Position numbers and translations under genes: made by a program
The notes under the pieces: model-generated
Told to the model about the DNA's origin: nothing
The model's input: only the letters and a program-made list of their open reading frames with translations
Database searches by the model: none
In this document: in pieces, positions 43,886 through 64,000 of the stretch
How the letters are laid out: every line of letters starts with the position of its first letter
Position numbering within the stretch: position 1 is the first letter of the stretch
NCBI RefSeq assembly: GCF_004217555.1
Contig: NZ_SHKW01000001.1
Location: forward strand, 5,208,001-5,272,000
Direction: 5' to 3'
Source of the DNA: Edaphobacter modestus
GTDB taxonomy: Bacteria > Acidobacteriota > Terriglobia > Terriglobales > Acidobacteriaceae
DNA length: 64,000 nucleotides

Positions 43886-44374
43886 ATGCCATTCCAACTC
43901 AACATCAATCGGAAACCTCATACGGTCGACGCCTCAGACGACACGCCGTTGCTATGGGTGCTGCGCGACGTACTCGACATGAAAGGTACCAAGTACGGCT
44001 GTGGGGTAGGGATGTGCGGTGCCTGCACGGTGCTCATGGACGGCAAGGCAATCCGGTCCTGCCTGATTCCAGCCTCTCAGGTGAAGGGCAACATTACCAC
44101 CATCGAAGGACTGGCGGAAAACGGCAAGCTGCACGCGCTGCAAGAGGCCTGGGTCGACCTGGACGTTGCCCAGTGCGGCTATTGCCAGGGCGGACAGATT
44201 CTGAGCGCGGCGTCGCTGCTGGCGCAGCATCCCAAGCCGACTGACGCTGAGATCGAAACGGCGATGACGGGCAATATCTGCCGCTGCGCCACCTATAACC
44301 GCATCAAGGCGGCGATTCATAAGGCTGCCGGCTCTCAAGCTGAGACGAAGGGGGAAGTCCATGCCGGTGAGTGA
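43886..44374 (+). CDS. (2Fe-2S) subunit of a molybdenum hydroxylase (isoquinoline 1-oxidoreductase type), pair 2
   Basis: A 162-residue protein with both cluster motifs: GCGVGMCGACTVLMDG in the ferredoxin domain, and CGYCQGGQIL plus GNICRCATY in the helical domain. The ATG at 43886 follows GAGGTGAG. It overlaps the large-subunit gene by 14 bp, implying coupled translation. It would relay electrons from the molybdenum site, in the way of IorA. It is clearly a different lineage from the pair at 13362-16212. Confidence 0.94.
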   Translation: MPFQLNINRKPHTVDASDDTPLLWVLRDVLDMKGTKYGCGVGMCGACTVLMDGKAIRSCLIPASQVKGNITTIEGLAENGKLHALQEAWVDLDVAQCGYCQGGQILSAASLLAQHPKPTDAEIETAMTGNICRCATYNRIKAAIHKAAGSQAETKGEVHAGE

Positions 44375-47403: not shown

Positions 47404-49017
47404 ATGCTTTGCATGATGCGAAGAACGAATCTGCGTGGACAATTCCGCCTGTGGCGTATTTCGATTTTGATATGCCTTGCGTTTTTGAGTGGCCTGGCCG
47501 TGAAAGGTGCATGGGCGCAGGCGAAGAAGCCGAACATCCTGGTGATCTTCGGCGACGACATTGGCCAGACGAACATCAGCCGGTACACGCATGGCTTAGT
47601 AGGCTATTCGACGCCGAACATCGACCGCGTCGGCGAAGAAGGCATGACTTTCACCGACTACTACGCGGAGAACAGCTGCACGGCGGGGCGTTCGTCGTTT
47701 ATCACGGGTCAGTCGCCGATGCGAGTCGGCCTCACCAAGGTGGGTGTGCCCGGCGCTCCGGTTGGTCTTCAGAAGCGCGACATTACGATCGCCGAGGCTC
47801 TTAAGCCGCTGGGATATGCCACCGGGCAGTTCGGAAAAAATCATCTCGGCGATCGCGATGAGTATCTGCCCACGAATCACGGCTTCGACGAGTTCTTCGG
47901 CAACCTCTACCACCTGAATGCGGAGCAGGAGCCGGAGATGCCTTACTGGCCGAAAGACGATCCCGCTTTTCTAAAGGTGTACAACCCTCGTGGCGTAATC
48001 CACTCGTTTGCCGATGGGAAGATCGAAGATACGGGTCCTCTGAATATCAAGCGCATGGAGACGATCGACGACGAGACCTCCAACGCGGCGATGGGATTTA
48101 TCGACAAGCAGGTGAAGGCAAACAAGCCTTTCTTTGTGTGGATGAACTTCACGCGAATGCATGTCTTTACGCACATCCGGCCTGAGTTCCACGAAAAGAG
48201 CGGCATGCCCGGTAACGATTATGCCGATGGCATGTGGGAGCACGACCAGGATGTCGGAAAGCTGCTGAAGCAACTGGATGATCTTGGAATCGCGAAGGAC
48301 ACGATCGTGCTCTATACGACGGATAACGGTCCCAACATGTTCAGTTGGCCAGATGCAGCGATGACTCCTTTCCGGAGCGAGAAGGACTCGAACTGGGAGG
48401 GCGCATTCCGTGTCCCGGCGATGGTTCGCTGGCCCGGACATATCAAGGCAGGTGCCTGGTCGAATGAGATCGTCTCCGGTCAGGACTGGTTCCCGACGCT
48501 GCTGGCGGCAGCGGGAAATCCGAACATCACGGAGCAACTGTTGAATGGCACGGGGCCGGGCGGTATGGCGCACAAGGTCCATCTGGATGGGTACAACATC
48601 CTTCCTTATCTTGAGGGCAAGGTGGCACATACACCGCGAAAGGACTTTTACTACTTCGACGACGATGGCCAGCTGGTAGCCATGCGGCACGAAAACTGGA
48701 AGTTCGTCTTCTGCGAACAGCGTGCACCGGGGAATATGCTGATATGGGCAAACCCGTTCACCTGTCTGCGGCTTCCGAAGATTTATAACCTTCGCATGGA
48801 TCCCTTCGAGAGGGCAGACATTACGTCCGATCAGTACTACGACTGGGTGGGACACAACGTTTATCTGGCCATCCAGGGTCAGATTCGCGCCATCGAGTTC
48901 ATGGAGACCTTCAAAGCCTACCCGCCCAGTCAGGCTCCTGCGAGCTTCAGTATCGATCCTGACGGTATTTTGAAGATGCTGGAGCGTCAAAAGGCAGCAA
49001 CAGGAGGAGGAAAGTGA
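47404..49017 (+). CDS. Type I arylsulfatase (formylglycine-dependent), exported
   Basis: A 537-residue sulfatase. Residues 1-40 hold a signal peptide ending GAWAQ. Metal ligands appear in NILVIFGDDIGQTN. The modification motif is Cys92-T-A-G-R in NSCTAGRSSFITGQ, an alanine variant of the C-x-P-x-R consensus where cysteine becomes formylglycine. Later conserved pieces are FGKNHLGDRDEYLPTNHGFDEFF and LYTTDNGPNMFSWPD. It hydrolyses a sulfate ester in the periplasm. GGGGGA lies ahead of the ATG. The only formylglycine-generating enzyme seen in the window is at 60140. A terminator-like hairpin follows at 49100. Confidence 0.94.
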   Translation: MLCMMRRTNLRGQFRLWRISILICLAFLSGLAVKGAWAQAKKPNILVIFGDDIGQTNISRYTHGLVGYSTPNIDRVGEEGMTFTDYYAENSCTAGRSSFITGQSPMRVGLTKVGVPGAPVGLQKRDITIAEALKPLGYATGQFGKNHLGDRDEYLPTNHGFDEFFGNLYHLNAEQEPEMPYWPKDDPAFLKVYNPRGVIHSFADGKIEDTGPLNIKRMETIDDETSNAAMGFIDKQVKANKPFFVWMNFTRMHVFTHIRPEFHEKSGMPGNDYADGMWEHDQDVGKLLKQLDDLGIAKDTIVLYTTDNGPNMFSWPDAAMTPFRSEKDSNWEGAFRVPAMVRWPGHIKAGAWSNEIVSGQDWFPTLLAAAGNPNITEQLLNGTGPGGMAHKVHLDGYNILPYLEGKVAHTPRKDFYYFDDDGQLVAMRHENWKFVFCEQRAPGNMLIWANPFTCLRLPKIYNLRMDPFERADITSDQYYDWVGHNVYLAIQGQIRAIEFMETFKAYPPSQAPASFSIDPDGILKMLERQKAATGGGK

Positions 49018-49128: not shown

Positions 49129-49158
49129 GCTTTGATGGGTGGAAGATCAAGAGGCGGA

Positions 49159-51738
49159 ATGAACCCGGTAAAGGTATTTTCGGTCCCTAAGATGAAGAAG
49201 ACAGCGATAAAGAACGCGAGAGAAGTTGCACCTGTTGCGCGAGACCATAGCGGTGCGGCTCTGCTGTATTGTGCGCTGCTGTTTCTTTCTGGAGTTGCGG
49301 CGCTGGTGTACCAGGTGCTTTGGGTGAGGCAGCTTTCGCTGGTGGTGGGCGTCGAGCTGTACTCGATCACGGTGGCGGTGAGCGCGTTCTTTGCGGGGTT
49401 GGCGGGGGGAGGCGCTATGTTTGGGCGAGTGGCCGACCGCGTGGTGTCTGCGTTGCGGCTGTATGTCGTGCTTGAGGTTGCTGTCGCGCTGTGTGCTGTG
49501 GCCACGACGCTGGTGCTGCCTCATGCTGCGATGCCGTTTGTGTGGATGCAGGAGCATGTTGGAGTTCTCTCGTGGGTGTTGCCGTTTGTGCTGGTGGGGG
49601 TGCCGGCGTTCGTGATGGGAGGGACGCTTCCGGTGGCGGTGCGTGCGCTGCGAGCGAGTGGGCAAGAGGCGGCGAGAGAGGGCGGGCTGCTTTACGCGGC
49701 GAATACGGCGGGAGGAATTGTGGGCGCGCTGGTGGCGAGCTTTGCGTTGCTGCCGTGGTTTGGGGTGCGCGGCGCGGCGTTGGCGGCGGGCTGTCTGAAC
49801 ATGGCTGCGGCGGGGATTGCGTTGGCGCTGGCTCGGCGTGAGGATGCCGAGAGGGCTCGCGAGGCTTCGCGGGAGGTTGGTGAGGAACGGGGCGCGGTCG
49901 GTGTGCCGGTGGCTCCGGGGATGGCGCTGGCGTTGTATGCGGTGGCGGGGGGAATCGCGCTGGGCTACGAGGTGGTGTGGTCGCAGGCGCTGGGTCAGTT
50001 TGTGAGCACGCGGGCGTTTGCATTTTCGATTGTGCTGGCCGTGTACCTTGCGGGGGTTGCGGCGGGGAGCGGGGTGGGGTCGCGGTTGGCGGGGAGATTG
50101 CGGGACTCGTGGGGAGTGTTTGGCCTGCTGATCGCGGGAGCGGGGCTGGTGGCGATGCTGGAGTTTGCGGCGCTGGGGCCGTGGCTGGTCGAGCTGCAGA
50201 CGGTGGTGGGTGGTGCGGTGCTGGCGGCGACGGGGAGTCAGGCGATGCGGATGTATGCGAGCTTCGCGGTGGCGGGGATGGGAATGGTGTTTGTGCCGAC
50301 GCTTCTGCTGGGCGCGGCGTTTCCGGTGGCGCTGCGCCTGATGGTGGGCGCGAAGCATGTGGGCCGCGATGTGGGTGCGGTGGTGGCGGCGAATACCACG
50401 GGAGGAATCGCGGGAACGCTGGTGACGGGGTTTGTGCTGGTTCCGCAGATTGGGCTGGTGCGCACGTTGAGCCTGCTGGCGATTGCGGCGGTGGCGGTGG
50501 GGCTGATCGCTGCGCTCTTGGGTGCGGGCGTGAGGCGGGGGATGACGTGGGCGATCGGCGGGATGGGCGTGGCGGTGGTGGTGGCTGCATCTCTTACGCC
50601 GCCGGACCGTCTGGCGAATCTGCTGTTGGAGACGCGGGGAGGGGGCGTGCTGGTGTTCTACGAGGAGGGCCGGGGAGCAACGGTGGCGGTTGCGCAGCAG
50701 CGGGCGAAGGACAACGTGTTTCGGCGGCTGTTCATCCAGGGGGTTTCGAACTCGGGCGATGCGATGCCTTCGATGCGGTATATGCGGCTGCAGGCGATGC
50801 TGCCGCTGCTGATTCATGATGGCGAGCCGAAGTCGGCGCTGGTGGTGGGATTTGGGACGGGGATTACGGCGGGGGAGATACTGCGATATCCGGGGCTTGA
50901 GACGCGGGTTTGCGCGGAACTGCTGCCGGCGGTGGTGCGGTCGGGAGAGATGTTTCCGGAGAACTACAAGGCGTGGAGCGATCCGAGGATGCAGATACGA
51001 ATACGCGATGGGCGGCAGGAGCTGATGCGGAGCAAGGAGCGGTACGACGTGATTGCGCTCGAGCCGCCGCCACCGTCGGCGCAGGGAGTGGCGAATCTGT
51101 ATTCGACGGAGTTTTATGAGCTGGCGAAGAGCAGGCTCGCACCGAAGGGACTGTTTGCGCAGTGGCTGCCGATTGCTACGCAGAATGTGGAGGAGACGCG
51201 ATCGCTGGTGCGCAGCTTTCTGGATGCGTTTCCGCATGCCACGCTGTGGACGACTGAACTGCACGAGATGCTGTTGGTGGGGTCGGAGTCGCCGATCAGG
51301 CTGGATGCGCAGGTGATGGCGCAGAGGTTTGCCTCTGAGACGGTAACAGCAAGTTTGAAGGCGGTGGGAGTGGAGTCGCCTGCGGCGGCATTGGCGACGT
51401 GGGTGACGGGGCGCGAGGGGCTGGAGACGTTTGCCGCCGGGGCGAAGCCAGTGACGGACGACAGGCCGGGGATCGAGTATGGCGCGTGGGTGAAGCCAAG
51501 CGAGATTACGCGGGTGCTGCCGGAGCTGTTGTCGCTGAAGACGGAGGTTCCGGTGGAGGCCGCGGATGTTACGCTTCGCGCAGAGGTGGAGAGGCGACGC
51601 GCGACCCTGATGGACTTCTACACGGCAGGGCTGGCGGCCTATGGCGGAGATCAGCAGGCGTGGGGCCAGGCGGTGGCCAGGGTAAAGAAGGCTGAGCCAG
51701 GGAACGCCTACTACGGGTGGGTTATCGGCAGGGATTGA
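49159..51738 (+). CDS. Spermidine-synthase-like protein fused to a multi-helix membrane domain
   Basis: An 859-residue protein from the ATG at 49159; another ATG at 49192 is possible. The first ~520 residues hold about 14 hydrophobic helices (for example GVAALVYQVLWVRQLSLVVG), as in fused spermidine-synthase-like membrane proteins. The C-terminal domain is a methyltransferase-type Rossmann fold with ALVVGFGTGITAGEIL. Where true spermidine synthases have a D-x-x-D-P motif, this reads ALEPPPPSAQG, so polyamine synthesis is doubtful. Codon use is extremely G-rich, which creates a 705-codon stop-free shadow on the other strand. It converges with the MscS gene. Confidence 0.88.
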   Translation: MNPVKVFSVPKMKKTAIKNAREVAPVARDHSGAALLYCALLFLSGVAALVYQVLWVRQLSLVVGVELYSITVAVSAFFAGLAGGGAMFGRVADRVVSALRLYVVLEVAVALCAVATTLVLPHAAMPFVWMQEHVGVLSWVLPFVLVGVPAFVMGGTLPVAVRALRASGQEAAREGGLLYAANTAGGIVGALVASFALLPWFGVRGAALAAGCLNMAAAGIALALARREDAERAREASREVGEERGAVGVPVAPGMALALYAVAGGIALGYEVVWSQALGQFVSTRAFAFSIVLAVYLAGVAAGSGVGSRLAGRLRDSWGVFGLLIAGAGLVAMLEFAALGPWLVELQTVVGGAVLAATGSQAMRMYASFAVAGMGMVFVPTLLLGAAFPVALRLMVGAKHVGRDVGAVVAANTTGGIAGTLVTGFVLVPQIGLVRTLSLLAIAAVAVGLIAALLGAGVRRGMTWAIGGMGVAVVVAASLTPPDRLANLLLETRGGGVLVFYEEGRGATVAVAQQRAKDNVFRRLFIQGVSNSGDAMPSMRYMRLQAMLPLLIHDGEPKSALVVGFGTGITAGEILRYPGLETRVCAELLPAVVRSGEMFPENYKAWSDPRMQIRIRDGRQELMRSKERYDVIALEPPPPSAQGVANLYSTEFYELAKSRLAPKGLFAQWLPIATQNVEETRSLVRSFLDAFPHATLWTTELHEMLLVGSESPIRLDAQVMAQRFASETVTASLKAVGVESPAAALATWVTGREGLETFAAGAKPVTDDRPGIEYGAWVKPSEITRVLPELLSLKTEVPVEAADVTLRAEVERRRATLMDFYTAGLAAYGGDQQAWGQAVARVKKAEPGNAYYGWVIGRD

Positions 51739-51756: not shown

Positions 51757-53469
51757 TTATGAGTCGGGGTGCCGTACTGGATGCGACTTCTCCGCGTCGA
51801 GACGAACGACACCGATCGGCGTGGTCATGCTGGTGCCGGCCTCTTCGACGATGCGCATCATCTCGAGGATGACTTTTTCCTGCTCGGCGAGGAAGGAGTT
51901 GTAGTCGCCGCCGGGTTTGTTGTAGTAGGCGTAGACCTCGATCTCGGGGCCTGCGGGGGTGAGGCGGACGACGCGGATGCGCGCGGTCCTTTCGTCGATG
52001 TCCGGTCGATGAGTGAGGATGGCGAAGATATCGTCGAGGACTTTCTGCACGGTGGTGTGCGAGGTGTCAAAGCGCAGGGTGAAGGTCTGGTGGATCCAGA
52101 ACTGGTCGCGCATGGAGAAGTTTTCGAGCTCCATCTCGGCGACTTTTGAGTTGGGGATGGAGATGACGGAGCGGTCGAGGGTGCGGAGGCGGAGGGAGGA
52201 GATGCCGATCTCTTCGACGGTTCCGGTTTTCCCGGCTACGGTGCAGTAGTCGTTGACGCGGACGGCGCCGCGCATGACGATGGAGATTCCTCCGAAGAGG
52301 TCCGCGAGAGTCTTCTGCGAGGCGAGCGCGAGGGCGATACCGCCGATGCCGAGACCGGTGACGAGGGCGGAGACATTGACTCCGGCGAGGGTGAGCAAGA
52401 CGATGACGAGGACGAGGACGATGAGGATCTTGAGCATCTTCGCCAGCATGCCGACGAGGGTGATGCGCTCGATCTGCCCGAGGAGCAGAAGGCGCAGGGT
52501 GAGGAAGGCGATGGAGATGTCGGTGAGGCGGACGAGCATCCACGCGGTGCTGACGATGGCGGTGAGGATGGAGCCCAGGATCCAGTAGCGACGGGCCAGG
52601 GCGGTAATGGCGTAGTCAGCGGCGATGCGTTCCAGCAGCGCCAGCATCAGGCCGAAGGTGGGACCGTTGAGCTTGGCGATGGCCCTCTCGACGGTCCGCG
52701 TCATGTTGCGGCGAAACGAGATGCTCAGGATCCAGCGCACGAGGCGGGATAGAAGTCTGGCGAGGACGAACGCGATCACCAGGGCGAGAAGAATCACCGA
52801 CCATCGCCAGAGGGGGATGGAGAGGATGCGGACGCGCGAGGTCCAAGAGGGAAAGTAGCGGGAGAAGTCGGTGTGGCGGGTGCTGGCGTAGGCGGAGGGA
52901 ACGCGGTCGAGGGTCTCGCGGGAGAAGAGCCAGATGGAGGACTCGTTGGGGCGGGCGATGCGGTCGAGGAGGATGTCGAACGTTGCTGCGGGAGTGGTGA
53001 CGACGCCGACTTTTTCGCGGGAGTCAGGGAGTCCGTCCTCGAGGTTGCCCTCAGGGAGGCGGGAGAATTTCTCGAACTCGGTGGAGGGGCCGAGATCGAA
53101 AAGCGCCTTGAGCTGTGAGGCGAGCTGCTCGGCTTGCTGCTCAGGGAGCTTGGTGTCGAGAAACTTTGCTGCGCGGGCGTAGTCCTGGCTTTCGGCGGCG
53201 CGAAGAAAGCCGAGGACGGTGCCGCGGGGCGTCGATCGGCCGAAGGGGTCGGGCGGCGGCGGCTGAACGGGCGCGGGAGCAGCGGCTGGGGTGGTGGCGG
53301 CGGGTGGCGGGGCGGCGGCTTTCTTCGAAGCGCGTTTCGTTCGAGGCGAGGTTTGCGCGTTGGCGCCGGCGAGCGCTGCCAGGAGCAGCGGCAGCAGCAG
53401 GAGCAGCAGCGGGAGCAGACGGAGACGCCGCGGTTCCGAAGCGTCCTTGATCTGGATGTGGTCGAACAT
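51757..53469 (-). CDS. MscS-family mechanosensitive channel with long N-terminal extension
   Basis: A 570-residue protein. It has an N-terminal signal-like helix (LLPLLLLLLPLLLAALAGANA), a Pro/Ala-rich linker (~50-80), a soluble periplasmic region (~80-200), four or five membrane helices (~220-370), and then the MscS core. The pore helix carries the Gly/Ala pattern VTGLGIGGIALALASQKTLADLFGG, and the beta domain reads VAGKTGTVEEIGISSLRLRT. The C-terminal alpha/beta domain runs to about 550. It releases solutes on hypo-osmotic shock. Much longer than minimal MscS (about 286 residues), like the YnaI/YbdG-type relatives. Confidence 0.93.
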   Translation of the reverse strand: MFDHIQIKDASEPRRLRLLPLLLLLLPLLLAALAGANAQTSPRTKRASKKAAAPPPAATTPAAAPAPVQPPPPDPFGRSTPRGTVLGFLRAAESQDYARAAKFLDTKLPEQQAEQLASQLKALFDLGPSTEFEKFSRLPEGNLEDGLPDSREKVGVVTTPAATFDILLDRIARPNESSIWLFSRETLDRVPSAYASTRHTDFSRYFPSWTSRVRILSIPLWRWSVILLALVIAFVLARLLSRLVRWILSISFRRNMTRTVERAIAKLNGPTFGLMLALLERIAADYAITALARRYWILGSILTAIVSTAWMLVRLTDISIAFLTLRLLLLGQIERITLVGMLAKMLKILIVLVLVIVLLTLAGVNVSALVTGLGIGGIALALASQKTLADLFGGISIVMRGAVRVNDYCTVAGKTGTVEEIGISSLRLRTLDRSVISIPNSKVAEMELENFSMRDQFWIHQTFTLRFDTSHTTVQKVLDDIFAILTHRPDIDERTARIRVVRLTPAGPEIEVYAYYNKPGGDYNSFLAEQEKVILEMMRIVEEAGTSMTTPIGVVRLDAEKSHPVRHPDS

Positions 53470-53520: not shown

Positions 53521-54741
53521 TTACACCACGACTTTCATGAGCAGCTTGAGGACATCCTTGAGGGGCATCACGGTCAACAGGAGCGTGGCCATGGGCAGAA
53601 GCGTGAGGATGACGAGCTGGAGGAGCGTTCGCGGATCGATGGGGATGGGTTTCATGTGCTCGATGATCTCGTAGCTGTGGCTGAGATCGGCGAGCGATTG
53701 AATGTCGGGGGTGCCGAGGAGTTTTTGCTGTTCGGGATTGTCACCCTGGACCCATTTGTGGTGGAAGGAGCCGGTGTAGGCGGTGGCCAGCGCGCCGTAC
53801 TCCCGCAGGCCTATGCGTTTGGTGACGAGTAGCTTCCTGGTGAAGACGACGAGCGGGGCCGAAGTGAGCAGCACAACGAAGATGACATAGGCGGCGATGG
53901 CCGGGGCGAAGTTCTGCAGTGGAATCTTTCCGTAGATGATCTCGTCGGCGAAGACGCCGGTGATGCTGCAGGAGTAGGCGAAGAAGAGGATGCCGAAGAA
54001 ACGCTGCGCCTCTCCGATGAAGCCGAGGCCGCCTTCCTGATCGGGGTGCGTGGGAAACAATTGTAGATTAAGGTTGCTGACTTCGTTGAGAAAGCGGAAC
54101 CACAGAAAGATTCTCCAGACCCAGCGCAAGAGGAGGAACTGCAGCAGGGGCACGCAGAAGAGGATGAACCACCAGCCTGCCCAGGTGAGGACGAAGCCGC
54201 CGGTTGCGGACGGCGTGGCGTACCAGGTGGAGATGGGAACGGCGAGTTGCCGGAAGCCGGTGAGGGAGACGATGTAAGCGAGAACCACGATGATGATCTC
54301 GGCGAAGACGGAATCGCGGAGGCGCAGGCTTCTTTCGACGGCGGCGTCGAATTTGTTGTAATCGCTCTCGGTGACGATGTTGGCCAGCAGCAAGTGTTCT
54401 GCGGTGTCAGCGATGCGCGGGCCGAGCACCACCTCGGCGAGAAGAAACAACGGAACAGCGATGAGAAAGCGGCTGTAGGTGCTGAAGTCGGACAGGAAGG
54501 GCATTGTCACCGACTTGCCGAAGGCATCGCCGTGGAGAGCGGAGAGGATGAGAAGGACAAACCAGGTGAGGCCGGCGGCCAGGAGGGCACGACGTATGGT
54601 GAAAGGAGTGTTGGCCTTGATGAGACCGGCGCGCCGTTCGAGGCGATAGAAGGGGCCGCCCTCCATGAGAAGGAGGGGGCGGGTCTTTGGATAAGTAAGC
54701 GGATCGATGTGCCGATGCGTGCTCGGTTCCACTGGTTCCAC
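53521..54741 (-). CDS. Polytopic membrane protein of unknown function
   Basis: A 406-residue protein with about eight hydrophobic helices (near residues 50-70, 90-110, 150-170, 190-225, 250-275, 285-310 and 380-400). A soluble N-terminus contains PLLLMEGGPFYRLERRAGLI. Conserved-looking polar stretches include FLNEVSNLNLQLFPTHPDQE and LATAYTGSFHHKWVQGDNP. I recognise no named family. It lies 50 bp upstream of, and in the same direction as, the MscS gene, so the two are probably co-transcribed and may share a membrane-stress role. Confidence 0.8.
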   Translation of the reverse strand: MEPVEPSTHRHIDPLTYPKTRPLLLMEGGPFYRLERRAGLIKANTPFTIRRALLAAGLTWFVLLILSALHGDAFGKSVTMPFLSDFSTYSRFLIAVPLFLLAEVVLGPRIADTAEHLLLANIVTESDYNKFDAAVERSLRLRDSVFAEIIIVVLAYIVSLTGFRQLAVPISTWYATPSATGGFVLTWAGWWFILFCVPLLQFLLLRWVWRIFLWFRFLNEVSNLNLQLFPTHPDQEGGLGFIGEAQRFFGILFFAYSCSITGVFADEIIYGKIPLQNFAPAIAAYVIFVVLLTSAPLVVFTRKLLVTKRIGLREYGALATAYTGSFHHKWVQGDNPEQQKLLGTPDIQSLADLSHSYEIIEHMKPIPIDPRTLLQLVILTLLPMATLLLTVMPLKDVLKLLMKVVV

Positions 54742-55407: not shown

Positions 55408-56508
55408 CTAGTGAAAGGACCAGCCTACGGTGGTGGAGCCGCCGAGGTTGTTGGTGGGCGCGCCGACGACGGGCTGATTGTCGTAGTTATCGTAGAAGCT
55501 CATGCGGATATAGAAGTCGCCGAGGAACTTGTAATAGATGTCCTGATTGAACGTCATGCGCACGCGGCCCGGCGAGGTGAGGCTGGGATAGAGCCAGAAC
55601 GCGGTATTGAAGGTGGTGGAGTCGAAGCGGAAGGTGGAGTACTGGACGGCGAAGGAGGAGTCGAGCGCCTGGCTGCGGGCCGTGCTGGTCGTGCCCGGAG
55701 CGTCACGCTCGACGGTGAGGGCAAGGCCGCCGACGGTGTTGAGGTTGGTGCGGTTGGTGAAGATGACACGCTTGGCCAGGCCTCCGCCGATGGTGGACCG
55801 GAGGTCGATCTGCTGGGCGGTACTGGAGAGGAAGTTGGCGATGCCGCCGTAGTACCAGTTGGACCGATGGAGCTGCTTGTAGAGCGCGGTTTTGATGTTG
55901 GTTTCGTTGGTGTCGCTGGTCTGCTGCTGGCTGGTGAACTGCGAGTTGGAGTCGAGGGAGAAGTAGTGTTCGCGGGACTGGTAGGAGAGTCCTCCCTGGA
56001 GCGACATGTTTTTCTGGTTGTTGGATTTTGCGAAGCTCAAGCCTAAATCGATGTTTCCTCGCATTCTCTTCCAGAAGCTTTCGCCGAGCTCTTCGACCTG
56101 GATGACGGAGAGGTTGGGGAGCCTTGTGGTTGTGTCTCCGATGACGGTGAGGTCCTTGGTGTCTTTGTCGCGTTCGATTCTTCCGGTGAAGACATCACCT
56201 TTGGGATCGGTGACAACGAAGGTCTGTTTACTTTCGACGTGATCGACCTTCTCCCAGTCGAGGACGATGTTGGAGCTGGTGTAGTCGGGTTTGACGGTGA
56301 ACTGACCTTTTTCGAGCGACTTGATCTCGCAGGTGATCTTATCGCCGTTCTTCATGTAGACGATGTCGGTCTTAGAACGACTGTCGGCGAGGGCAGCCTG
56401 AGCCAAGAGCAGCGCAAGCATAGCGAGGAGCGAGGAGGCTCGCGTTTCACGTTGCCGGGAAGGCAGGTTCCTAATAAGAGGAAAGAAGCGATTGACGCTT
56501 TGCATCAT
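55408..56508 (-). CDS. DUF481 outer-membrane beta-barrel protein
   Basis: A 366-residue exported protein from the ATG at 56508 (a second ATG follows directly; an upstream in-frame start would add 14 unconvincing residues). A signal peptide ends near ALAD. A short SH3-like N-terminal domain (IVYMKNGDKITCEIKSLEKG) precedes a DUF481 beta-barrel (~130-366) of alternating strands such as NIDLGLSFAKSNNQ, ending in the aromatic GWSFH typical of outer-membrane proteins. Function unknown; family members are implicated in salt or alkali stress. It is divergent from the MetA/SphA-type gene. Confidence 0.9.
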   Translation of the reverse strand: MMQSVNRFFPLIRNLPSRQRETRASSLLAMLALLLAQAALADSRSKTDIVYMKNGDKITCEIKSLEKGQFTVKPDYTSSNIVLDWEKVDHVESKQTFVVTDPKGDVFTGRIERDKDTKDLTVIGDTTTRLPNLSVIQVEELGESFWKRMRGNIDLGLSFAKSNNQKNMSLQGGLSYQSREHYFSLDSNSQFTSQQQTSDTNETNIKTALYKQLHRSNWYYGGIANFLSSTAQQIDLRSTIGGGLAKRVIFTNRTNLNTVGGLALTVERDAPGTTSTARSQALDSSFAVQYSTFRFDSTTFNTAFWLYPSLTSPGRVRMTFNQDIYYKFLGDFYIRMSFYDNYDNQPVVGAPTNNLGGSTTVGWSFH

Positions 56509-56725
56509 TGCGGCCCCCCTACCGGCTCGATCTTGATCCAAAAGCAGCATTCAGGCTTTGTGCTATATTTGCTCACCAGGTTTGAGGCGTCAAAGGCTCC
56601 GAGCAAGTTTGGGTTTTTTGCTTCTCGATGTCTTTTCCAATAAGAAGACCAGGACACCAACATTATTCTCTTTAGTTCTGGCTAAGACGGAAAGACGAAA
56701 GAACGGGTTGCGAGGTGACTTCTTG

Positions 56726-57670
56726 ATGCGCGAGAGAACGTCGTCGCATGCTCTGCGCCACTTTGTCTCAGCCTTGTTGGTGGTCTTGTTTTTCGGTGAT
56801 CAAGTTCCGGCTCAACAGTCCGGTCACTACATACAGGGATTCACCGGCCTCGACAACGGAACAGGTGCACCCCCTGGGGTGTATGTTGCCTACCTCCCAT
56901 ACATCTACGACATCGACTCGCTGCGGGGACCGCAAGGGACAACGCTGCTAAAGCCCGACCTGACGCTCGTAGCCGACAACGTGGTCTACCAGGCGACGAC
57001 GACGAAGAAGATCCTCGGCGCCGATTACGGCGTGGCGGTGAGCATTCCTATCGTGAATACACGCCTGACAGCGAACTTTCTGAACACGAATGTACAAAAT
57101 GCCGGTGTCTCGGATATCTATTTCGCGCCGATTGTGCTTGGTTGGGCGAAGGGTAAGGCGACCTATCTTCTGAACTACGGTTTTTACGCGCCGTCAGGTC
57201 AATTCGATCCCAACACGTCCATCAATTCCGGTCTTGGCTTCTGGGAGCACCAGATCCAGGCGGGAATGGGCTATTCGTTCGACAAGAAGAAGCTTTGGAA
57301 CGCCTCGGCTCTCTCGACGTGGGAGATCAATCAGAGCAAGTCGGGGCTGGACCTGACGCCGGGGCCGATGGTGAACGTGGAGTACAGCGCGGGACACAGG
57401 TTCGATCAGTACAAGATCAACCTGGGTGCGGCGGGATACTTCTATCACAAGCTTTCGCCGGACTCGGGAAGCGACAGCACGCTGCTGGGCACTACGGCGC
57501 TCGACCGATCGTTTGGCATCGGGCCTGAGTTCAAGTACACGAATCCGGTAAAGCACTTCTCCTTTGATTTTCGGTACGAGCACCAGTTTGGCGTGCAGGC
57601 GAAGACGCAAGGCGATGTTTATGTGATAGGTATCACGTGGCTGAATATCTTTCCTCCGTCGCACCCCTAG
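56726..57670 (+). CDS. SphA/MetA-type outer-membrane transporter-like protein
   Basis: A 314-residue protein started at the ATG at 56726, with GAGGTGA ahead; a frame open from 56558 is rejected because its first 56 residues look non-coding. A signal peptide ends near VPAQQ. The rest is a predicted beta-barrel of the phenol-degradation MetA/SphA family (HYIQGFTGLDNGTGAPPG, YFAPIVLGWAKGKATYLLNYG, DFRYEHQFG). Relatives are proposed to take up hydrophobic compounds. First gene of a forward run with the triple-repeat protein, the formylglycine-generating enzyme and a HAD hydrolase. Confidence 0.88.
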   Translation: MRERTSSHALRHFVSALLVVLFFGDQVPAQQSGHYIQGFTGLDNGTGAPPGVYVAYLPYIYDIDSLRGPQGTTLLKPDLTLVADNVVYQATTTKKILGADYGVAVSIPIVNTRLTANFLNTNVQNAGVSDIYFAPIVLGWAKGKATYLLNYGFYAPSGQFDPNTSINSGLGFWEHQIQAGMGYSFDKKKLWNASALSTWEINQSKSGLDLTPGPMVNVEYSAGHRFDQYKINLGAAGYFYHKLSPDSGSDSTLLGTTALDRSFGIGPEFKYTNPVKHFSFDFRYEHQFGVQAKTQGDVYVIGITWLNIFPPSHP

Positions 57671-57737
57671 GGCCGCCAGGATGGGAGTATGATTCCGCGC
57701 CTCCACGCGGACGTATTGCTGATGGAAGGAGGTTATG

Positions 57738-60107
57738 ATGCTGGTTCGATTGCTGCGTAGATTGACCGCTGAGATGTGCATCAGTTGTCTGGTCGTCTCG
57801 CCGACCCAATTGGCTGCACAAGCCTCTCCAGGAAGCACGGCCTCCGCGCCGTCACCGGCTGCAGTCGGAGATCCAGGATGGCCGCGACAGATCGTAAAGA
57901 ACGGCGTAAAGCTGGTGTATTACCAGCCCCAGGTGGACAGTTGGGAGAAGTATCAGCTGTTGAAGGCTCGTATGGCGTTTTCGTTGACGCCACAGAGCGG
58001 GAAGGCTGCGCTGGGTGTTGTTTCGGTGGAAGCAGGCACGACGGTTGATAACAACACGCGTACGGTCTATCTGCATGACCTGAACTATACGAGCGTGCGT
58101 TTTTCAGGGATCGATGCGACGTCAGAAGCGCAGTTGCAGCAGACGTTTCGCGCGATCGTGCCACCCGAGGGAGAGCCCGTTGCGCTGGACAGGTTACTGG
58201 CGGATCTCGATACCACGAAGATGCCTCTAAAGACAGCTCCGCTGAAGAATGATCCTCCGCAGATCTTCTATAGCGCGTCGCCGGCCATTCTGCTGATGGT
58301 GCAGGGCCAGCCAGTGCTGAGCCCCATTGAGAAGACGGATCTGCAGTTCGTCGTGAACACCAACTGGGATTTGTTCTTCGAAAAGTCGAAGGGCGACTAC
58401 TACCTGCTGGACAACAACCTGTGGCTGACATCGAAGAACCTGGGTGGACCCTGGGTGGCAACGAAGACGCTGCCAAAGGACATGGCGAAGCTGCCCCCCG
58501 GGCAAAACTTCGATGATGTGAAGCGATATGTCCCTCCGCCTGCGACGACAGGAAGGGCACCGCGTGTCGTGTATAGCCAGACACCGGCAGAGCTTCTGCT
58601 GCTGCGGGGAGCCCCGGTATACACGCGGATTTCGGGAACGCGGTTGCTGTATGTAACGAACACAGACAATGATGTGTTTCTGGACGATGCGGCGAAGCAG
58701 TACTACGTCCTGCTGTCGGGACGGTGGTTTCGTTCGGCTTCGTTGGATGGGCCGTGGAGCTATGCAAGCGATAAGCTACCGCCGGACTTCATGAAAATCC
58801 CCGAGGATTCGCCGAAGGGGAGGGTACTGGCTTCGGTGCCGGGCACAATTCAGGCTTCCGATGCCGTGATGCTCGCGCAGATTCCAACGAGGGTAACGGT
58901 GAACCGCGCAGAGGCTGAAGCGAAAGCGAAGGTGACGTACGATGGACCGCCTCAGTTCAAGCCGATCGAAACAACGAAGCTGCAGTATGCGACGAATACG
59001 CAGGATAAGGTGATCAAGGATGGCGACATTTACTACCTGTGCTTCCAGGGGGTGTGGTTTATGTCGACGACGCCGAGCGGACCGTGGAAGACGGCAAGCT
59101 CGGTTCCGCCGGAGATCTATGAGATTCCTCCGAGCTCACCGGTATACAACGTGACCTACGTGACGCAGACGAACCCGACGGCGACGACGGTGCAGAGCAG
59201 CACAACGGCGGGTTACTTCGGCATGTTTATCCTGGGTGCGGCGGTGGGCGCGGCAATCGTATACGGCTCGGGATACTACTATCCGCCGTATATCTACTGG
59301 GGTCCCGGAGCCTACCCGATCTATCGTCCCTGGCCGGTGACCTACGGAGCCGGTTACGTGTACAACCCCTGGAATGGAGGATGGGCCGCGGGCCACGCGG
59401 CCTATGGTCCATACGGGGCTGTTGGGTCGTCGGCGTGGTACAACCCTTCGACCGGGAGATATGGCCGCTCTGCGAGCGTACAGGGGGTGTATGGGGGAAG
59501 GACCGTTGCACAGGCATACAACCCGTGGACGGGAGGCTACGGCGCGACCTCGCAGGGACATAACGCATATTCGCAGTGGGGAAGCTCTGTCGCGAGCCGC
59601 AATGGCAACTGGGTGCAGACGGGTCATGTGACGACGGCGAGCGGGACCGTAGCCGGCTATAGAACATCCGCCGGCGAGCAGGGCACAGCCTATCGTGGAG
59701 CGAATGGCGCGGTGGTGCACGGCTCGGACAACTCCGTCTATGCGGGCAACGATGGCAATGTCTACCGCAAAGACTCCAGTGGTGGCTGGAGCAAGTACGA
59801 CAACGGTGGCTGGAACACGGTCGACACAACCGCGGCGAAGCAGCAGGCACAGCAGAACCTTCAGACAAGCCACCCGAATGCGCAGCAGAATGCGCAGACT
59901 TTCCAGGCGAACCATCCCAGCGCGCAAGAGAACGCTCAGGCAGCGCGGCAGAATGCGGGGAATAGGGGGGCGAGCGGAGGGACATCGCAGATCAACAGCA
60001 GCACACTGCAGGGGCTTGATCGATCGGCCGGTGCTCGATACCGCGGACAGGCACAGACAGGACGGTTCCAAAACTTTCACAGGGGAGGAGGAAGATTCCG
60101 GCGGTAA
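57738..60107 (+). CDS. Large secreted protein with three internal repeats and a Gly/Tyr-rich tail
   Basis: A 789-residue protein. AGGAGG is spaced correctly for the ATG at 57738 rather than that at 57735. A signal peptide ends near LAAQA. Three repeat units start near residues 203, 303 and 415, each with a VTNT-like start, YYLL or YYVL, a tryptophan turn, GPW and a LPP/IP end (for example LLYVTNTDNDVFLDD and SGRWFRSASLDGPW). A hydrophobic helix follows near 500 (FGMFILGAAVGAAIVYG). Next comes a Gly/Tyr/Trp-rich region (AYNPWTGGYGATSQG) and a Gln/Asn/Ala-rich tail. Relatives are sometimes labelled carbohydrate-binding, on weak grounds. It is followed 32 bp later by the formylglycine-generating enzyme. 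Confidence 0.85.
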   Translation: MLVRLLRRLTAEMCISCLVVSPTQLAAQASPGSTASAPSPAAVGDPGWPRQIVKNGVKLVYYQPQVDSWEKYQLLKARMAFSLTPQSGKAALGVVSVEAGTTVDNNTRTVYLHDLNYTSVRFSGIDATSEAQLQQTFRAIVPPEGEPVALDRLLADLDTTKMPLKTAPLKNDPPQIFYSASPAILLMVQGQPVLSPIEKTDLQFVVNTNWDLFFEKSKGDYYLLDNNLWLTSKNLGGPWVATKTLPKDMAKLPPGQNFDDVKRYVPPPATTGRAPRVVYSQTPAELLLLRGAPVYTRISGTRLLYVTNTDNDVFLDDAAKQYYVLLSGRWFRSASLDGPWSYASDKLPPDFMKIPEDSPKGRVLASVPGTIQASDAVMLAQIPTRVTVNRAEAEAKAKVTYDGPPQFKPIETTKLQYATNTQDKVIKDGDIYYLCFQGVWFMSTTPSGPWKTASSVPPEIYEIPPSSPVYNVTYVTQTNPTATTVQSSTTAGYFGMFILGAAVGAAIVYGSGYYYPPYIYWGPGAYPIYRPWPVTYGAGYVYNPWNGGWAAGHAAYGPYGAVGSSAWYNPSTGRYGRSASVQGVYGGRTVAQAYNPWTGGYGATSQGHNAYSQWGSSVASRNGNWVQTGHVTTASGTVAGYRTSAGEQGTAYRGANGAVVHGSDNSVYAGNDGNVYRKDSSGGWSKYDNGGWNTVDTTAAKQQAQQNLQTSHPNAQQNAQTFQANHPSAQENAQAARQNAGNRGASGGTSQINSSTLQGLDRSAGARYRGQAQTGRFQNFHRGGGRFRR

Positions 60108-60139
60108 GACTTCCTTGTCGTCGAATATTCGTGGAGCGT

Positions 60140-61411
60140 ATGAAGAGATCGAACACCAAGATCGCCGAGACAGAGGTAAAGCAGACCAAGACCACGCTCT
60201 TGATATGTCTCGTGGTGGCCGCAGCGATTCTTGCAGCGGTACTGGTTGTAAAGCGACCGGGAAATATGAAGTTCGGTCCGGCTGCAACAGATGCAACTCC
60301 CGCGGCGGCAACAAGCACTCCGGCTTCGCCTGCGCATGACTTAATGCATCACGAGGGGGACGCTAACAATAAGGTCGCGTTCGGTCCGACAGTGCCGAAC
60401 GCTGCGCCGCCTCCAAAGAAGGCGCCGGCAGGAATGGTGTGGATCTCGGGCGGTGAATTTTCCATGGGCGCGCAGGATCCGCCGGGCATGGATGACGTGG
60501 GTATGAAGGCGACCTACGATTCGCGTCCGGTGCATCGCGTGTATGTGGATGGATTCTTCATGGACAGGACGGACGTGACCAACGCGGAGTTCGAGAGATT
60601 TGTGAAGGCGACCGGTTATGTAACGGTGGCGGAGCGTAAGCCACGGGCCGAGGACTTTCCAGGGGCTCCGCCAGAGAACCTGGTTGCGGGGTCGGTGGTG
60701 TTTTCGCCTCCCGATCATCCTGTATCGCTGGACAACTATTTCCAGTGGTGGAGCTATGTGGCGGGGGCCAACTGGCGTCACCCGCAGGGTCCGAAGAGCA
60801 GCATTGCGGGCAAGGGCGATTATCCGGTGGTGCATGTCGCCTATGAAGATGCACAGGCCTATGCGAAGTGGGCGGGCAAGCGTCTGCCGACGGAGGCGGA
60901 GTGGGAGTTTGCAGCTCGCGGCGGCCTTGCCGGGAAACCTTATGTGTGGGGCGACGACTTTCGGCCGCACGGCAAGTGGATGGCGAATACGCACGAAGGG
61001 CAGTTCCCGATGAAGGACACGGGCGCGGACGGCTATGTTGGGGCCGCTCCGGTGGCGCAGTTTCCTGCGAACGGATATGGCTTGTACGACATGGCTGGGA
61101 ATGTGTGGCAATGGACGAGCGACTGGTATCGCCCGGACTACTACAAGCAACTCAATGCAGCAGGTGTGGCTCGCAATCCGCAGGGGCCGGAGTCGGCATA
61201 CGATCCATCGGAGCCAGGTACTCAGAAGAAGGTTCATCGCGGGGGATCGTATTTGTGCACGGACCAATACTGCTCGCGCTACATGGTGGGCACGCGAGGC
61301 AAGGGAGAGACCGATACCGGCACGAATCATCTCGGGTTTCGCTGCGTGATGATCGTGCCTGAAAAGACAGCAACAGTAGCAGGACACGCAAGTTCGGCCT
61401 CCGGGCAGTAA
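60140..61411 (+). CDS. Membrane-anchored formylglycine-generating enzyme (SUMF1/FGE family)
   Basis: A 423-residue protein from the ATG at 60140 (a GTG three codons earlier is an alternative). A single N-terminal helix (TTLLICLVVAAAILAAVLVV) would anchor it with the enzyme domain outside the cytoplasm. The domain runs from MVWISGGEFSMGAQDPPG to LGFRCVM and contains RLPTEAEWEFAARGG and GNVWQWTSDW. Both catalytic cysteines of aerobic FGE are present as Cys373 and Cys378 in SYLCTDQYCSRY. FGE converts the sulfatase cysteine to formylglycine, so the CTAGR arylsulfatase at 47404 is the obvious client. An anchored, exported FGE would have to act on unfolded sulfatase during or after secretion. Confidence 0.92.
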   Translation: MKRSNTKIAETEVKQTKTTLLICLVVAAAILAAVLVVKRPGNMKFGPAATDATPAAATSTPASPAHDLMHHEGDANNKVAFGPTVPNAAPPPKKAPAGMVWISGGEFSMGAQDPPGMDDVGMKATYDSRPVHRVYVDGFFMDRTDVTNAEFERFVKATGYVTVAERKPRAEDFPGAPPENLVAGSVVFSPPDHPVSLDNYFQWWSYVAGANWRHPQGPKSSIAGKGDYPVVHVAYEDAQAYAKWAGKRLPTEAEWEFAARGGLAGKPYVWGDDFRPHGKWMANTHEGQFPMKDTGADGYVGAAPVAQFPANGYGLYDMAGNVWQWTSDWYRPDYYKQLNAAGVARNPQGPESAYDPSEPGTQKKVHRGGSYLCTDQYCSRYMVGTRGKGETDTGTNHLGFRCVMIVPEKTATVAGHASSASGQ

Positions 61412-61433
61412 AGCTCGGGGACGGAGCTGGAAG

Positions 61434-62468
61434 ATGAGGATGTGGTCGAAGAGCCTGATAATTGCGATAGTGGGCTGCTATCTTGCAATGACCGGATGCA
61501 AGAGCATGCCGGATGCGAAGGCAGTTAAGGAAACAATCGTGGATCCGCTGCCGTCGTGGAACGACGGGCCGACGAAGAAGGCGATCACCGACTTTGTGGC
61601 GCGGGTGACGAACAAAGGCAGCGCGGACTTTGTACCGGAGGGCGAACGCATCGCGACCTTCGACAATGATGGAACGCTGTGGGTGGAGCAGCCGATCTAT
61701 ACGGAGGCAATCTTTACCAACGACCGCATCCAGCAGCTTGCACCGCAGCATCCGGAGTGGAAGACAAAGCAACCTTTCGCAGCCGTGCTGAACCATGACA
61801 GGAAGGCGCTGGCGGCGAGCGAAGAGAAGGGCGCGGTGGCGCAACTCCTGGCCGTGACGCATACAGGGATGACGACGGATGAGTTCGATAAGACCGTGTC
61901 GGACTGGATCGCGCAGGCGCGGCATCCACGCTTCAAGCGGCCGTTTACTCAATGTATCTACCAGCCGATGGTAGAAGTGCTGAACTATCTGCGCGCGAAC
62001 GGATTCAAGACGTATATCGTCTCGGGCGGCGAGCAGGAGTTCATGAGGCCATGGACGGAAAAGGCATATGGTATTCCCCGCGAACAGGTGATAGGAACTC
62101 AAATGAAGACATCGTTCGCATTGAAGGACGGCCTCGCGTCTATCATGCGTCTGCCGCAGCTTGATTCGATGGACGATGGCCCGGGCAAGCCTGTCAACAT
62201 CTAGCGGTTCATTGGAAAACGCCCTATCGCAGCCTTCGGCAACTCGGATGGCGATCAGCAGATGCTGGAGTACACCGCAAGAGGCTCGGGGGCACGGCTG
62301 GCGGTTCTGGTGCATCACACGGACGCAGACCGCGAGTACAGCTATGACCGGGACTCAAATGTAGGCAGGCTGGACAAGGCTCTCGATGAGGCTCGTGAGA
62401 ACAAGCGGCTTGTCATCGATATGAAATCTGACTGGAAAGCGATCTTTCCATCCAGTGGCAATCCATAG
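61434..62468 (+). pseudogene. HAD-family phosphatase gene with in-frame amber codon
   Basis: The first part (61434-62204) encodes 256 residues: a lipoprotein-like signal (CYLAMTGCKS) and HAD motif I in ATFDNDGTLW. It stops at TAG (62202-62204) after GKPVNI. The same frame continues without any shift as RFIGKRPIAAFGNSDGDQQM, which is HAD motif IV, through to SDWKAIFPSSGNP and TAG at 62466-62468. A single change, probably CAG to TAG, explains it. The truncated product lacks the Mg-binding aspartates of motif IV and should be inactive unless the stop is read through. It lies 22 bp after the FGE gene. Confidence 0.85.
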
Positions 62469-62769: not shown

Positions 62770-63149
62770 GGCCGCCTTGTGGGCTGCTTCGGCATAAGCG
62801 ACAGCGATCTTTGCGAACGATACGTTTGTTTCATCGGATTCGCCACTCGAATCCCACAGCTTCGCCGACGGAATCCTTGGCAATGGTTTTGTCGTTCGTG
62901 CTATCGATAACTCCAACATCGTGCCATGGTCCTACGTAACGCAGGTTCGGTCGATTGCAAACGCACACAACATACCCATTCAATATGGCGCTACCGGCGG
63001 CGGCAACGATGATGCGGGGTTTCAGCGCTATGGCACAACCGACGTGCCACTCAGCGGGCCTCTACGAAACTCACATTCCCCGTCGAAGTAATGGATCTCC
63101 GGGACCTGGATGCACTTTCCGCCATCATCAAACCGGTCATCATCCCATA
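62770..63149 (+). pseudogene. M42-type metallopeptidase, C-terminal relic
   Basis: After a stop near 62795 the frame reads DTFVSSDSPLESHSFADGIL, GNGFVVRAIDNSNIVPWSYV, NIPIQYGATGGGNDDAGFQR and HSPVEVMDLRDLDALSAIIK, then a stop at 63147. These are the C-terminal catalytic segments of M42 aminopeptidases, including the late zinc-ligand histidine region. The N-terminal two thirds is missing or unrecognisable. Confidence 0.82.
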
Positions 63150-63636: not shown

Positions 63637-64000
63637 ATGAGACGATCGCTGTATTACGGTTTCGTTGCTGTCGCTCTTCTGGCTGGTGGCGCTTATGGGG
63701 CCTATGCTCAGGGTGGCGACGCGGGGGCGGGCAGCCGAATCTTTTCTTCCAACTGCGCGGGCTGCCACGGGTCGGATGGCCGCGGTGGAGAGCGGGCTCC
63801 AAATATCGCGACGGCGCGGAACATCGCCTCGCTGAGGGATACGGAGCTAGGCAATTTTGTCCGCAATGGTATTCCTGGGGCAGGGATGCCTGCATTCTCT
63901 TTCCTGGGCGAGCGCGGCGTCCCGGACGTGATTGCCTATCTGCGTGTGCTGCAGGGAAAGACCGACGCGGTGGAAGTGACCGGCGATGCGACGGCGGGAC
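63637..64000 (+). CDS. Cytochrome c, N-terminal part (runs off the window)
   Basis: An open frame from the ATG at 63637 to the window edge gives 121 residues. A signal peptide (residues 1-25, VALLAGGAYGAYAQ) is followed by a class I cytochrome c domain with haem site Cys40-A-G-C-H44 and a candidate axial methionine in GAGMPAF. The rest, GERGVPDVIAYLRVLQG, is the last helix of the cytochrome fold. The frame stays open after it, so this may be a larger protein such as a PQQ dehydrogenase with an N-terminal cytochrome, like the one at 23566-25581. No stop lies in the window. Confidence 0.88.
   Translation, partial: MRRSLYYGFVAVALLAGGAYGAYAQGGDAGAGSRIFSSNCAGCHGSDGRGGERAPNIATARNIASLRDTELGNFVRNGIPGAGMPAFSFLGERGVPDVIAYLRVLQGKTDAVEVTGDATAG

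Follow-up and report, generated by a model that had tools for sequence, protein, structure and literature searches.

What do four consecutive forward-strand genes of Edaphobacter modestus have in common, and do they stand alone? The genes lie at positions 56,726 to 62,468 of a 64,000-nucleotide stretch of this genome (G000 in our survey; contig NZ_SHKW01000001.1, positions 5,208,001 to 5,272,000; hereafter the window) and encode a beta-barrel-type protein (A), a triple-repeat protein (B), a formylglycine-generating enzyme (FGE) with an N-terminal hydrophobic segment (C) and a HAD-superfamily protein (D). An earlier note, made from the letters alone, had put them forward as the best candidate for a new functional unit. 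The four frames do follow one another closely on the forward strand (gaps of 64, 23 and 22 bases), and the set is non-random and includes a family for which neither Pfam nor NCBIfam holds a model; however, it forms the edge of a larger set, with genes for a sulfatase, a polytopic membrane protein with a spermidine-synthase domain (SpdS), an MscS-type channel, a 406-residue membrane protein (U406) and a DUF481 protein immediately upstream, the likely organising sulfatase lies outside the proposed unit, and D is broken. We consider the chances slightly better than even that a sulfatase island occurring in three phyla survives here as a rearranged and partly eroded copy, with C as its copper-type maturase, and the sulfatase gene at 47404 is likely to be the centre of the gene set.

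Seven families, namely a sulfatase with the site CTAGR, the FGE, the HAD protein, B, A, MscS and U406, are all present between 47404 and 62468 of the window, D in broken form, and they recur together elsewhere. On an Agrobacterium plasmid (locus L072) genes for U406, MscS, B, A (annotated ‘transporter’), HAD and FGE accompany those for BatD, two VWA proteins, DUF4381, DUF58 and MoxR. The order in Rhizobium leguminosarum (L107) is B, A, an alpha/beta hydrolase, an arylsulfatase (CTAGR), MoxR, DUF58, DUF4381, VWA, VWA, BatD, FGE, HAD, MscS and a short U406-like piece; L108, L109 and L110 are rearrangements of this set, B not being seen in the fetched stretches of the latter two. An Azospirillum locus (L237) holds FGE, HAD, MoxR, DUF58, DUF4381, VWA, VWA, BatD and an arylsulfatase, and genome G179, from the same family as E. 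modestus, holds FGE, SpdS and a CTAGR sulfatase followed by MoxR-DUF58-DUF4381-VWA-VWA-BatD. Such MoxR-Bat genes adjoin CTAGR sulfatases in L107–L110, L211 and L222, and also in L096, there without MoxR in the stretch examined. The four families of the earlier note do co-occur in other genomes: in L072 and L108 the other three are no more than 10 kb from B, and in L107 no more than about 15 kb.

Smaller associations are also conserved. SpdS adjoins the sulfatase both in the window and in G179 (the L211 homologue is 64% identical), U406 adjoins MscS both in the window and in L072, where the Agrobacterium protein matches at E 6e-23, and MscS homologues are present in the rhizobial sets L072, L107 and L110. 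The barrel assignment of A is carried by PF13557 (117.8 bits against a Pfam cut-off of 22), and a member of the A family on rhizobial plasmids is annotated ‘transporter’. Of 46 B loci, the window counted, 6 have a DUF481 gene no more than 10 kb away. The gene set appears to erode and move, because in G061, the nearest relative (L036/L052), B is followed by a truncated FGE of 174 residues, a further small gene and, last, the barrel, and neither a HAD gene nor a CTAGR-type sulfatase was found in that genome.

The window sulfatase combines a Sulfatase domain with a site of the C/S-x-P/A-x-R type and so qualifies as a type I sulfatase, its CTAGR site falling outside the classical CxPxR form. Its N terminus looks signal-like by eye, with one hydrophobic segment, and the protein is 70% identical to the Rhizobium L107 protein and 76% to that of G179. 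In the sulfatase tree the window, G179, Chitinophaga G203 (L163) and rhizobial Bat-linked sulfatases form one clade (support 100/100), nested in a clade of 46 rows with the same support, in which every readable site is CTAGR or CTAAR; a further, smaller group with CTAGR falls beside CTPGR rows, outside the 46.

C matches PF03781 at 263.6 bits (curated cut-off 23.3) and aligns with the solved FGE 2q17 (E 8.8e-76), its Cys pair in GGSYLCTDQYC standing opposite GGSYLCHDSYC. The hydrophobic segment spans residues 23–41, and ATG 60140 is an alternative start. Because of this segment and the alignment with a solved FGE, the enzyme domain probably sits on the outer side of the inner membrane, which, taken with the signal-like N terminus of the sulfatase, makes it the simplest reading that C would modify the sulfatase after or during export. 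All four proteins had been described as exported or anchored in the earlier note; for C the hydrophobic segment fits this, and A, B and D were judged exported from their N termini by eye rather than with a signal-peptide program, a 19-residue hydropathy scan having flagged no N-terminal segment in them.

In the mechanism that we propose, the sulfatase (47404) would be exported unfolded, and C would be a copper-type FGE, anchored in the inner membrane so that its enzyme domain faces outwards, and would oxidise the CTAGR Cys to formylglycine on the periplasmic side, a step analogous to that of FGE in the eukaryotic endoplasmic reticulum. The sulfated substrate or its product could cross the outer membrane through A as a pore, B could bind or serve as a scaffold at the surface or in the periplasm, and D, inactive here, could be a lipoprotein that dephosphorylates the same compound; MscS and U406 would be accessory membrane proteins, and the MoxR-Bat operon of other genomes would supply an extra chaperone for the sulfatase. 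Beside the families, motifs, Cys pair, repeats, gene linkage, co-occurrence and broken D, which are observed directly, we infer the compartments (from hydrophobicity and by eye), the maturation of the sulfatase by C and the roles of A, B, D, MscS and U406.

The D frame runs for 256 codons to an in-frame TAG (62202–62204) and continues coding-like to 62465; a genome search with HAD likewise gives one TAG inside the D match. D had been taken for an intact gene ending at 62468, an end that runs through this stop. Motif I (DxDGT) is present as DNDGT, and the later acidic motif GNSDGD falls beyond the TAG, outside the translated frame. The break would appear to be recent, or else an assembly error, because the remnant remains 52–68% identical to the intact HADs of L072, L107, L108, L110, L237 and L242, which are hosted by Rhizobium, Agrobacterium, Sinorhizobium, Azospirillum and Methylobacterium plasmids. 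A rhizobial D homologue matches the solved HAD hydrolase 4ovy, whose title gives no function, over residues 34–334 (E 1.9e-110), whereas window D ends before the GNSDGD motif. The E. modestus genome holds a second, intact HAD gene (C1:1475036) right after a second CTAGR sulfatase gene (L123, C1:1473229–1475995). The HAD family as a strict partner of CTAGR sulfatases was discarded, since HAD genes also occur beside CTPGR sulfatases (L097, L111), near a CTPAR one (L126) and near one with a pattern-read CSPSR site (L138). Downstream of the broken gene, a stretch between two stops (62798–63090) looks like a gene relic and resembles the C-terminal part of a peptidase.

B is 790 residues long, one more than the earlier note had given, and the three repeats described there are real (residues 178–256, 278–358 and 402–467), the middle one matching the other two at 48.1 and 33.8 bits when the best of 2000 shuffled B sequences, taken whole, reached 7.3 bits. 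The Gly/Tyr-rich tail is likewise present in an alignment of 17 members. Neither Pfam nor NCBIfam gives a match for the window protein, and the sole Pfam match among the 17 members is a weak one to DUF3000, in one of them. Identity of B to 16 relatives from Acidobacteriota and Bacteroidota is 41–76%. Relatives occur in 21 of 199 Acidobacteriota genomes (G179 by a tail match only), 8 of 198 Bacteroidota genomes, 16 loci of a genome-contig scan and 39 plasmid records, mostly rhizobial, where several are annotated ‘SH3 domain-containing protein’; the rhizobial form bears an extra SH3_3 domain that window B lacks.

Structure prediction gave a confident model of the repeat region (predicted local distance difference test, pLDDT, 90.3) and a poor one of the full-length protein (60.8). 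For the repeat region Foldseek returned no match at E ≤0.001, and the best VIA-align Z was 4.2, with none of at least 5 among 980 chains, which does not establish a new fold. Residues 46–151 may resemble the YceB lipoprotein (3l6i; Z 9.2, root-mean-square deviation 3.1, 104 aligned residues), a likeness that Foldseek found weak (E 0.066), that is drawn from the poor full model and that leaves the remainder of B uncovered. A sequence search for solved relatives gave three matches, the best at E 0.1, and was set aside, as was the resemblance of the tail (about residues 535–670) to many barrels and single-layer sheets (Z 6–10), its pLDDT being mostly about 50 or less. Elsewhere the E. modestus genome encodes shorter proteins related to the C-terminal half of B, with the Gly/Tyr-rich tail (C7:164115–164825, L029; C1:684475–684735, L034).

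Which enzyme matures the CTAGR sulfatases was approached by searching for both known routes. According to a review (PMC8068374), the radical-SAM enzyme AtsB of Methanosarcina mazei recognises CTAGR, and CTPSR is used for the classical FGE. The cut-off of the radical-SAM maturase model TIGR03942 was exceeded in 0 of 20 sulfatase-bearing genomes and in 0 of 3 island-bearing plasmid records (plasmids only, chromosomes being outside the search), against 2 of 14 control genomes. Its best match in G000 scored 114.5 bits, far below the cut-off of 349.45, and an anSME was rejected for this genome on that account; we take the matching radical-SAM gene to be a quinohemoprotein amine dehydrogenase maturation gene. 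A Cys-pair FGE was found in 11 of the 20 sulfatase-bearing genomes, comprising all 8 from Bacteroidota and 3 of 12 from Acidobacteriota. A radical-SAM gene about 70 kb past the window end (C1:5340032, L178) looks like a maturation gene of the quinohemoprotein amine dehydrogenase type.

Co-occurrence was assessed by Fisher tests in sampled genomes, 199 from Acidobacteriota and 198 from Bacteroidota, using profile thresholds of E ≤1e-80 for the sulfatase and ≤1e-50 for HAD (67 frames pass 250 bits with the HAD model), and for B E ≤1e-5 in Acidobacteriota and ≤1e-20 in Bacteroidota. Amongst the Acidobacteriota, 12 genomes carry the sulfatase, 8 carry HAD and 6 carry both (P 3e-7; 4e-6 without G000), HAD and B are found together in 4 (P 0.005; 0.024 without G000), and the sulfatase and B, present singly in 12 and 20, are found together in 6 (P 3e-4; 0.0015 without G000). 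This last count leaves out G179, in which the B match covers the tail only; with it, the figure becomes 7 of 199 (P 3e-5). Amongst the Bacteroidota, the sulfatase is present in 8 genomes, HAD in 9 and both in 8 (P 2e-13; 4e-12 without G203, which was chosen for carrying B), with HAD and B together in 4 (P 1e-4; 0.0014 without G203) and sulfatase and B in 3 (P 0.002; 0.021 without G203). The sulfatase, HAD and B co-occur beyond chance in both phylum samples.

Gene neighbourhoods were counted within 10 kb. Of the 9 Bacteroidota genomes with HAD, 7 have it this close to a CTAGR sulfatase. The 46 B loci include five on plasmids, three of which (L107, L108 and L112) were chosen for having HAD on the record, and hence the 41 others are quoted here. 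L036 was dropped (same genome as L052), and L074 (partial match) and L075 (same record as L112) were left out; some of the 41 share a genome or are closely related, and several contigs are short. Near these 41 we found the sulfatase at 6, MscS at 5, DUF481 at 6, the barrel at 3 and U406 at 2, with a Cys-pair FGE and a HAD gene at one each, both being the window itself; measured between midpoints, the window sulfatase lies 10.7 kb from B and so falls outside the count. None of the searched families (18 valid models) appeared in 20 control stretches, each 20 kb long and taken from a genome with B. The neighbourhood case for B is weaker than its genome-level co-occurrence.

A number of observations weigh against the locus being a copy of a sulfatase island with C as the maturase. 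Shared ancestry is not corrected for in the Fisher tests, the majority of B loci are without the other genes of the set, and the sulfatase counts near B (6 of 41 against 0 of 20 controls) give P 0.08. About 11 kb and five genes, three of these on the opposite strand, separate the window sulfatase from C; D is broken, and no MoxR-DUF58-DUF4381-VWA-VWA-BatD genes were found within the 64 kb. The genome has a single MoxR match, 39% identical and located elsewhere, and of the 31 rows whose CTAGR site could be read, 6 have MoxR no farther than 10 kb away. No other family of the set lies within 10 kb of the G203 member of the sulfatase clade (L163 and L221, which are one gene), and the sulfatase that G203 has beside MoxR-Bat genes (L171, L222) sits elsewhere within the 46 rows.

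The maturase assignment meets difficulties of its own. Nine Acidobacteriota genomes with a CTAGR-type sulfatase (G001, G033, G090, G104, G110, G119, G145, G153 and G156; the site is CTAAR in G110) show no recognised Cys-pair FGE or radical-SAM maturase, and a search with C as query listed none of them. The nine are 81–99% complete, and nine gaps are too many for incompleteness alone to explain. The FGE survey behind this comprised 43 rows, of which the 30 with loci were all checked and one of the other 13 (L229) was seen later; the 12 left unchecked include three in G090, two in G104 and one in G156, all below 180 bits, the Cys-pair FGEs all scoring at least 256. Because 9 of the 12 sulfatase-bearing Acidobacteriota show no Cys-pair FGE, C does not appear to be generally required for a CTAGR-type sulfatase. 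Close relatives of C (at least 439 bits) occur in seven Acidobacteriota genomes, three of them with a CTAGR sulfatase (P 0.005; 0.037 without G000), and in all four of the others the relative lies beside a CxPxR sulfatase (L267–L270; in L270 the Cys pair was not recognised by the search pattern). The rhizobial FGE type is likewise found beside CTPSR (L239) and CSPTR (L240) sulfatases, and at L238 (CSASR), and the FGE subtype was accordingly rejected as a marker of CTAGR sulfatases. Since C relatives adjoin CxPxR sulfatases and L268 also contains U406 and a barrel of the same families, U406, the barrel and FGE may accompany sulfatases generally, the CTAGR kind being one client. The compartment of the FGE may also differ between phyla, as inspection by eye reveals neither signal nor anchor in rhizobial FGEs and suggests a lipoprotein in Chitinophaga.

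Could the genes simply be neighbours by chance, envelope proteins of unrelated use that came to lie side by side in this lineage? The other genes are missing from most B loci, G061 has another gene between its truncated FGE and barrel and yielded neither HAD nor a CTAGR-type sulfatase, and window C and D are 11–14 kb from the sulfatase, all of which this would explain. We nevertheless regard it as improbable, given that six or seven of the same families stand together on plasmids of another phylum, that the co-occurrence P values are as above and that none of the 20 control stretches holds any searched family. A polysaccharide-utilisation locus, in which the sulfatase would desulfate a glycan bound by B and the FGE would be its usual helper, is a somewhat more tempting explanation that we still think unlikely: sulfatases are usual components of such loci, B has three repeats and an aromatic tail, and some B neighbours are other sulfatases (L046, L049), but no glycoside hydrolase was named among 14 scanned window frames or the annotated genes of the rhizobial stretches inspected, though SusC/SusD, glycosidases and lyases were not targeted by a search of their own.

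The genes might instead serve the site itself, FGE and MoxR-Bat (perhaps with B and HAD) acting as a maturation line that converts, or inserts at, a CxAxR site poorly handled by the classical FGE. The division of CTAGR and CTPSR between AtsB and the classical FGE (parts of PMC8068374), the lack of any TIGR03942 match over cut-off in the 20 genomes and three records, the metal insertion driven elsewhere by MoxR/VWA pairs (parts of PMC9976466 and PMC13036017) and the MoxR-Bat genes beside CTAGR sulfatases at L107–L110, L211, L222 and L096 (MoxR aside in the last) all point this way. We doubt it strongly even so, as the FGE types also lie beside CxPxR sulfatases, the only MoxR match of G000 is 39% identical and located elsewhere, and MoxR is within 10 kb in 6 of 31 CTAGR rows. 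A broader proposal, and an unlikely one in our estimation, is of an undescribed aerobic CxAxR maturation or assembly pathway, comprising an FGE (anchored or lipoprotein-like in some phyla), MoxR-Bat, B and a dedicated HAD phosphatase, together with a third route for making or replacing formylglycine in those Acidobacteriota that have no recognised maturase.

Compared with the FGE (SUMF1)–sulfatase pairs of Streptomyces (2q17) and human (1y1e), the window shares the FGE domain, the Cys pair and a predicted exported sulfatase, but its FGE is predicted to be membrane-anchored, its site is CTAGR rather than CxPxR, and a barrel, B, HAD, MscS and U406 are added. Its CTAGR is an AtsB-type site (parts of PMC8068374), whereas the maturase searches set it apart from anSME/AtsB systems, with TIGR03942 over cut-off in none of the 20 sulfatase-bearing genomes or three plasmid records and an FGE in 11 of those genomes. 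MoxR-VWA chaperones (Bat, NorQD, RavA-ViaA) are represented by the MoxR-DUF58-DUF4381-VWA-VWA-BatD genes that relatives carry beside sulfatases and that the window lacks, and no paper tying MoxR-VWA systems to sulfatases was found in the literature searched. In agreement with the earlier note, no named system with this gene set was found there either, most subscription papers being outside coverage, and the set is not described in the available portions of PMC8909960, PMC8068374, PMC7159879, PMC8195603, PMC5579227, PMC6704131, PMC545781 and PMC3920027. Singly, the FGE, sulfatase, HAD and MoxR-VWA families are already known; undescribed in the literature searched are the linked set, the B and U406 families and the sulfatase-tied MoxR-Bat operon. 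If a sulfatase island is indeed what the window preserves, unnamed envelope families (B, U406 and the sulfatase-linked HAD) would gain a function and a test system, and the MoxR-Bat operon would gain a sulfatase as client. It also raises the question of how CxAxR sulfatases are activated in bacteria without a known radical-SAM enzyme, which bears on the proline-in-motif rule for FGE and on protein labelling with FGE. The sulfatase-tied MoxR-Bat operon and the CTAGR-type sulfatases of the nine Acidobacteriota without a recognised maturase are two puzzles in their own right.

Table 1. Genes and gene remnants of the sulfatase set and its neighbours, in window coordinates.
Feature	Position	Strand	Description
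Sulfatase	47404..49017	+	537 aa, signal-like N terminus, site AENSCTAGRSSFITG (CxAxR, Cys92); Pfam Sulfatase E 2.2e-47
SpdS, polytopic membrane protein with spermidine-synthase domain	49132..51738	+	Pfam Spermine_synth E 3.3e-11
MscS-type channel	51757..53469	-	Pfam MS_channel_2nd E 2.7e-15
U406, 406-aa membrane protein	53521..54741	-	Hydrophobic segments; no Pfam match
DUF481 protein, divergent neighbour	55408..56550	-	Pfam DUF481 E 7.2e-12; place in set uncertain
A, beta-barrel-type protein	56726..57670	+	Phenol_MetA_deg (PF13557) E 1.1e-33
B, triple-repeat protein, 790 aa	57735..60107	+	Possibly YceB-like N-terminal domain, three repeats, Gly/Tyr-rich tail
C, FGE with N-terminal hydrophobic segment and active-site Cys pair	60131..61411	+	FGE-sulfatase E 2.7e-78
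D first part, HAD-superfamily, lipoprotein-like by eye	61434..62204	+	Pfam HAD E 2.7e-11; ends at TAG 62202-62204
D remnant	62205..62468	+	D frame beyond TAG; contains GNSDGD motif

Further genes were noted around the set. Upstream of the sulfatase, positions 43886–46637 hold a two-gene [2Fe-2S] and molybdopterin-binding pair of dehydrogenase type, and a similar set lies near the FGE-HAD-MoxR island of Azospirillum (L237). A family of about 262 residues without a Pfam match (‘hyp262’) is recurrent near these sulfatases and HADs (L072, L107, L064, L093, L137 and L142–L144). At the other end, positions 63637–63999 encode a cytochrome c-like protein (Cytochrome_CBB3, E 9.9e-12) that extends past the end of the window.

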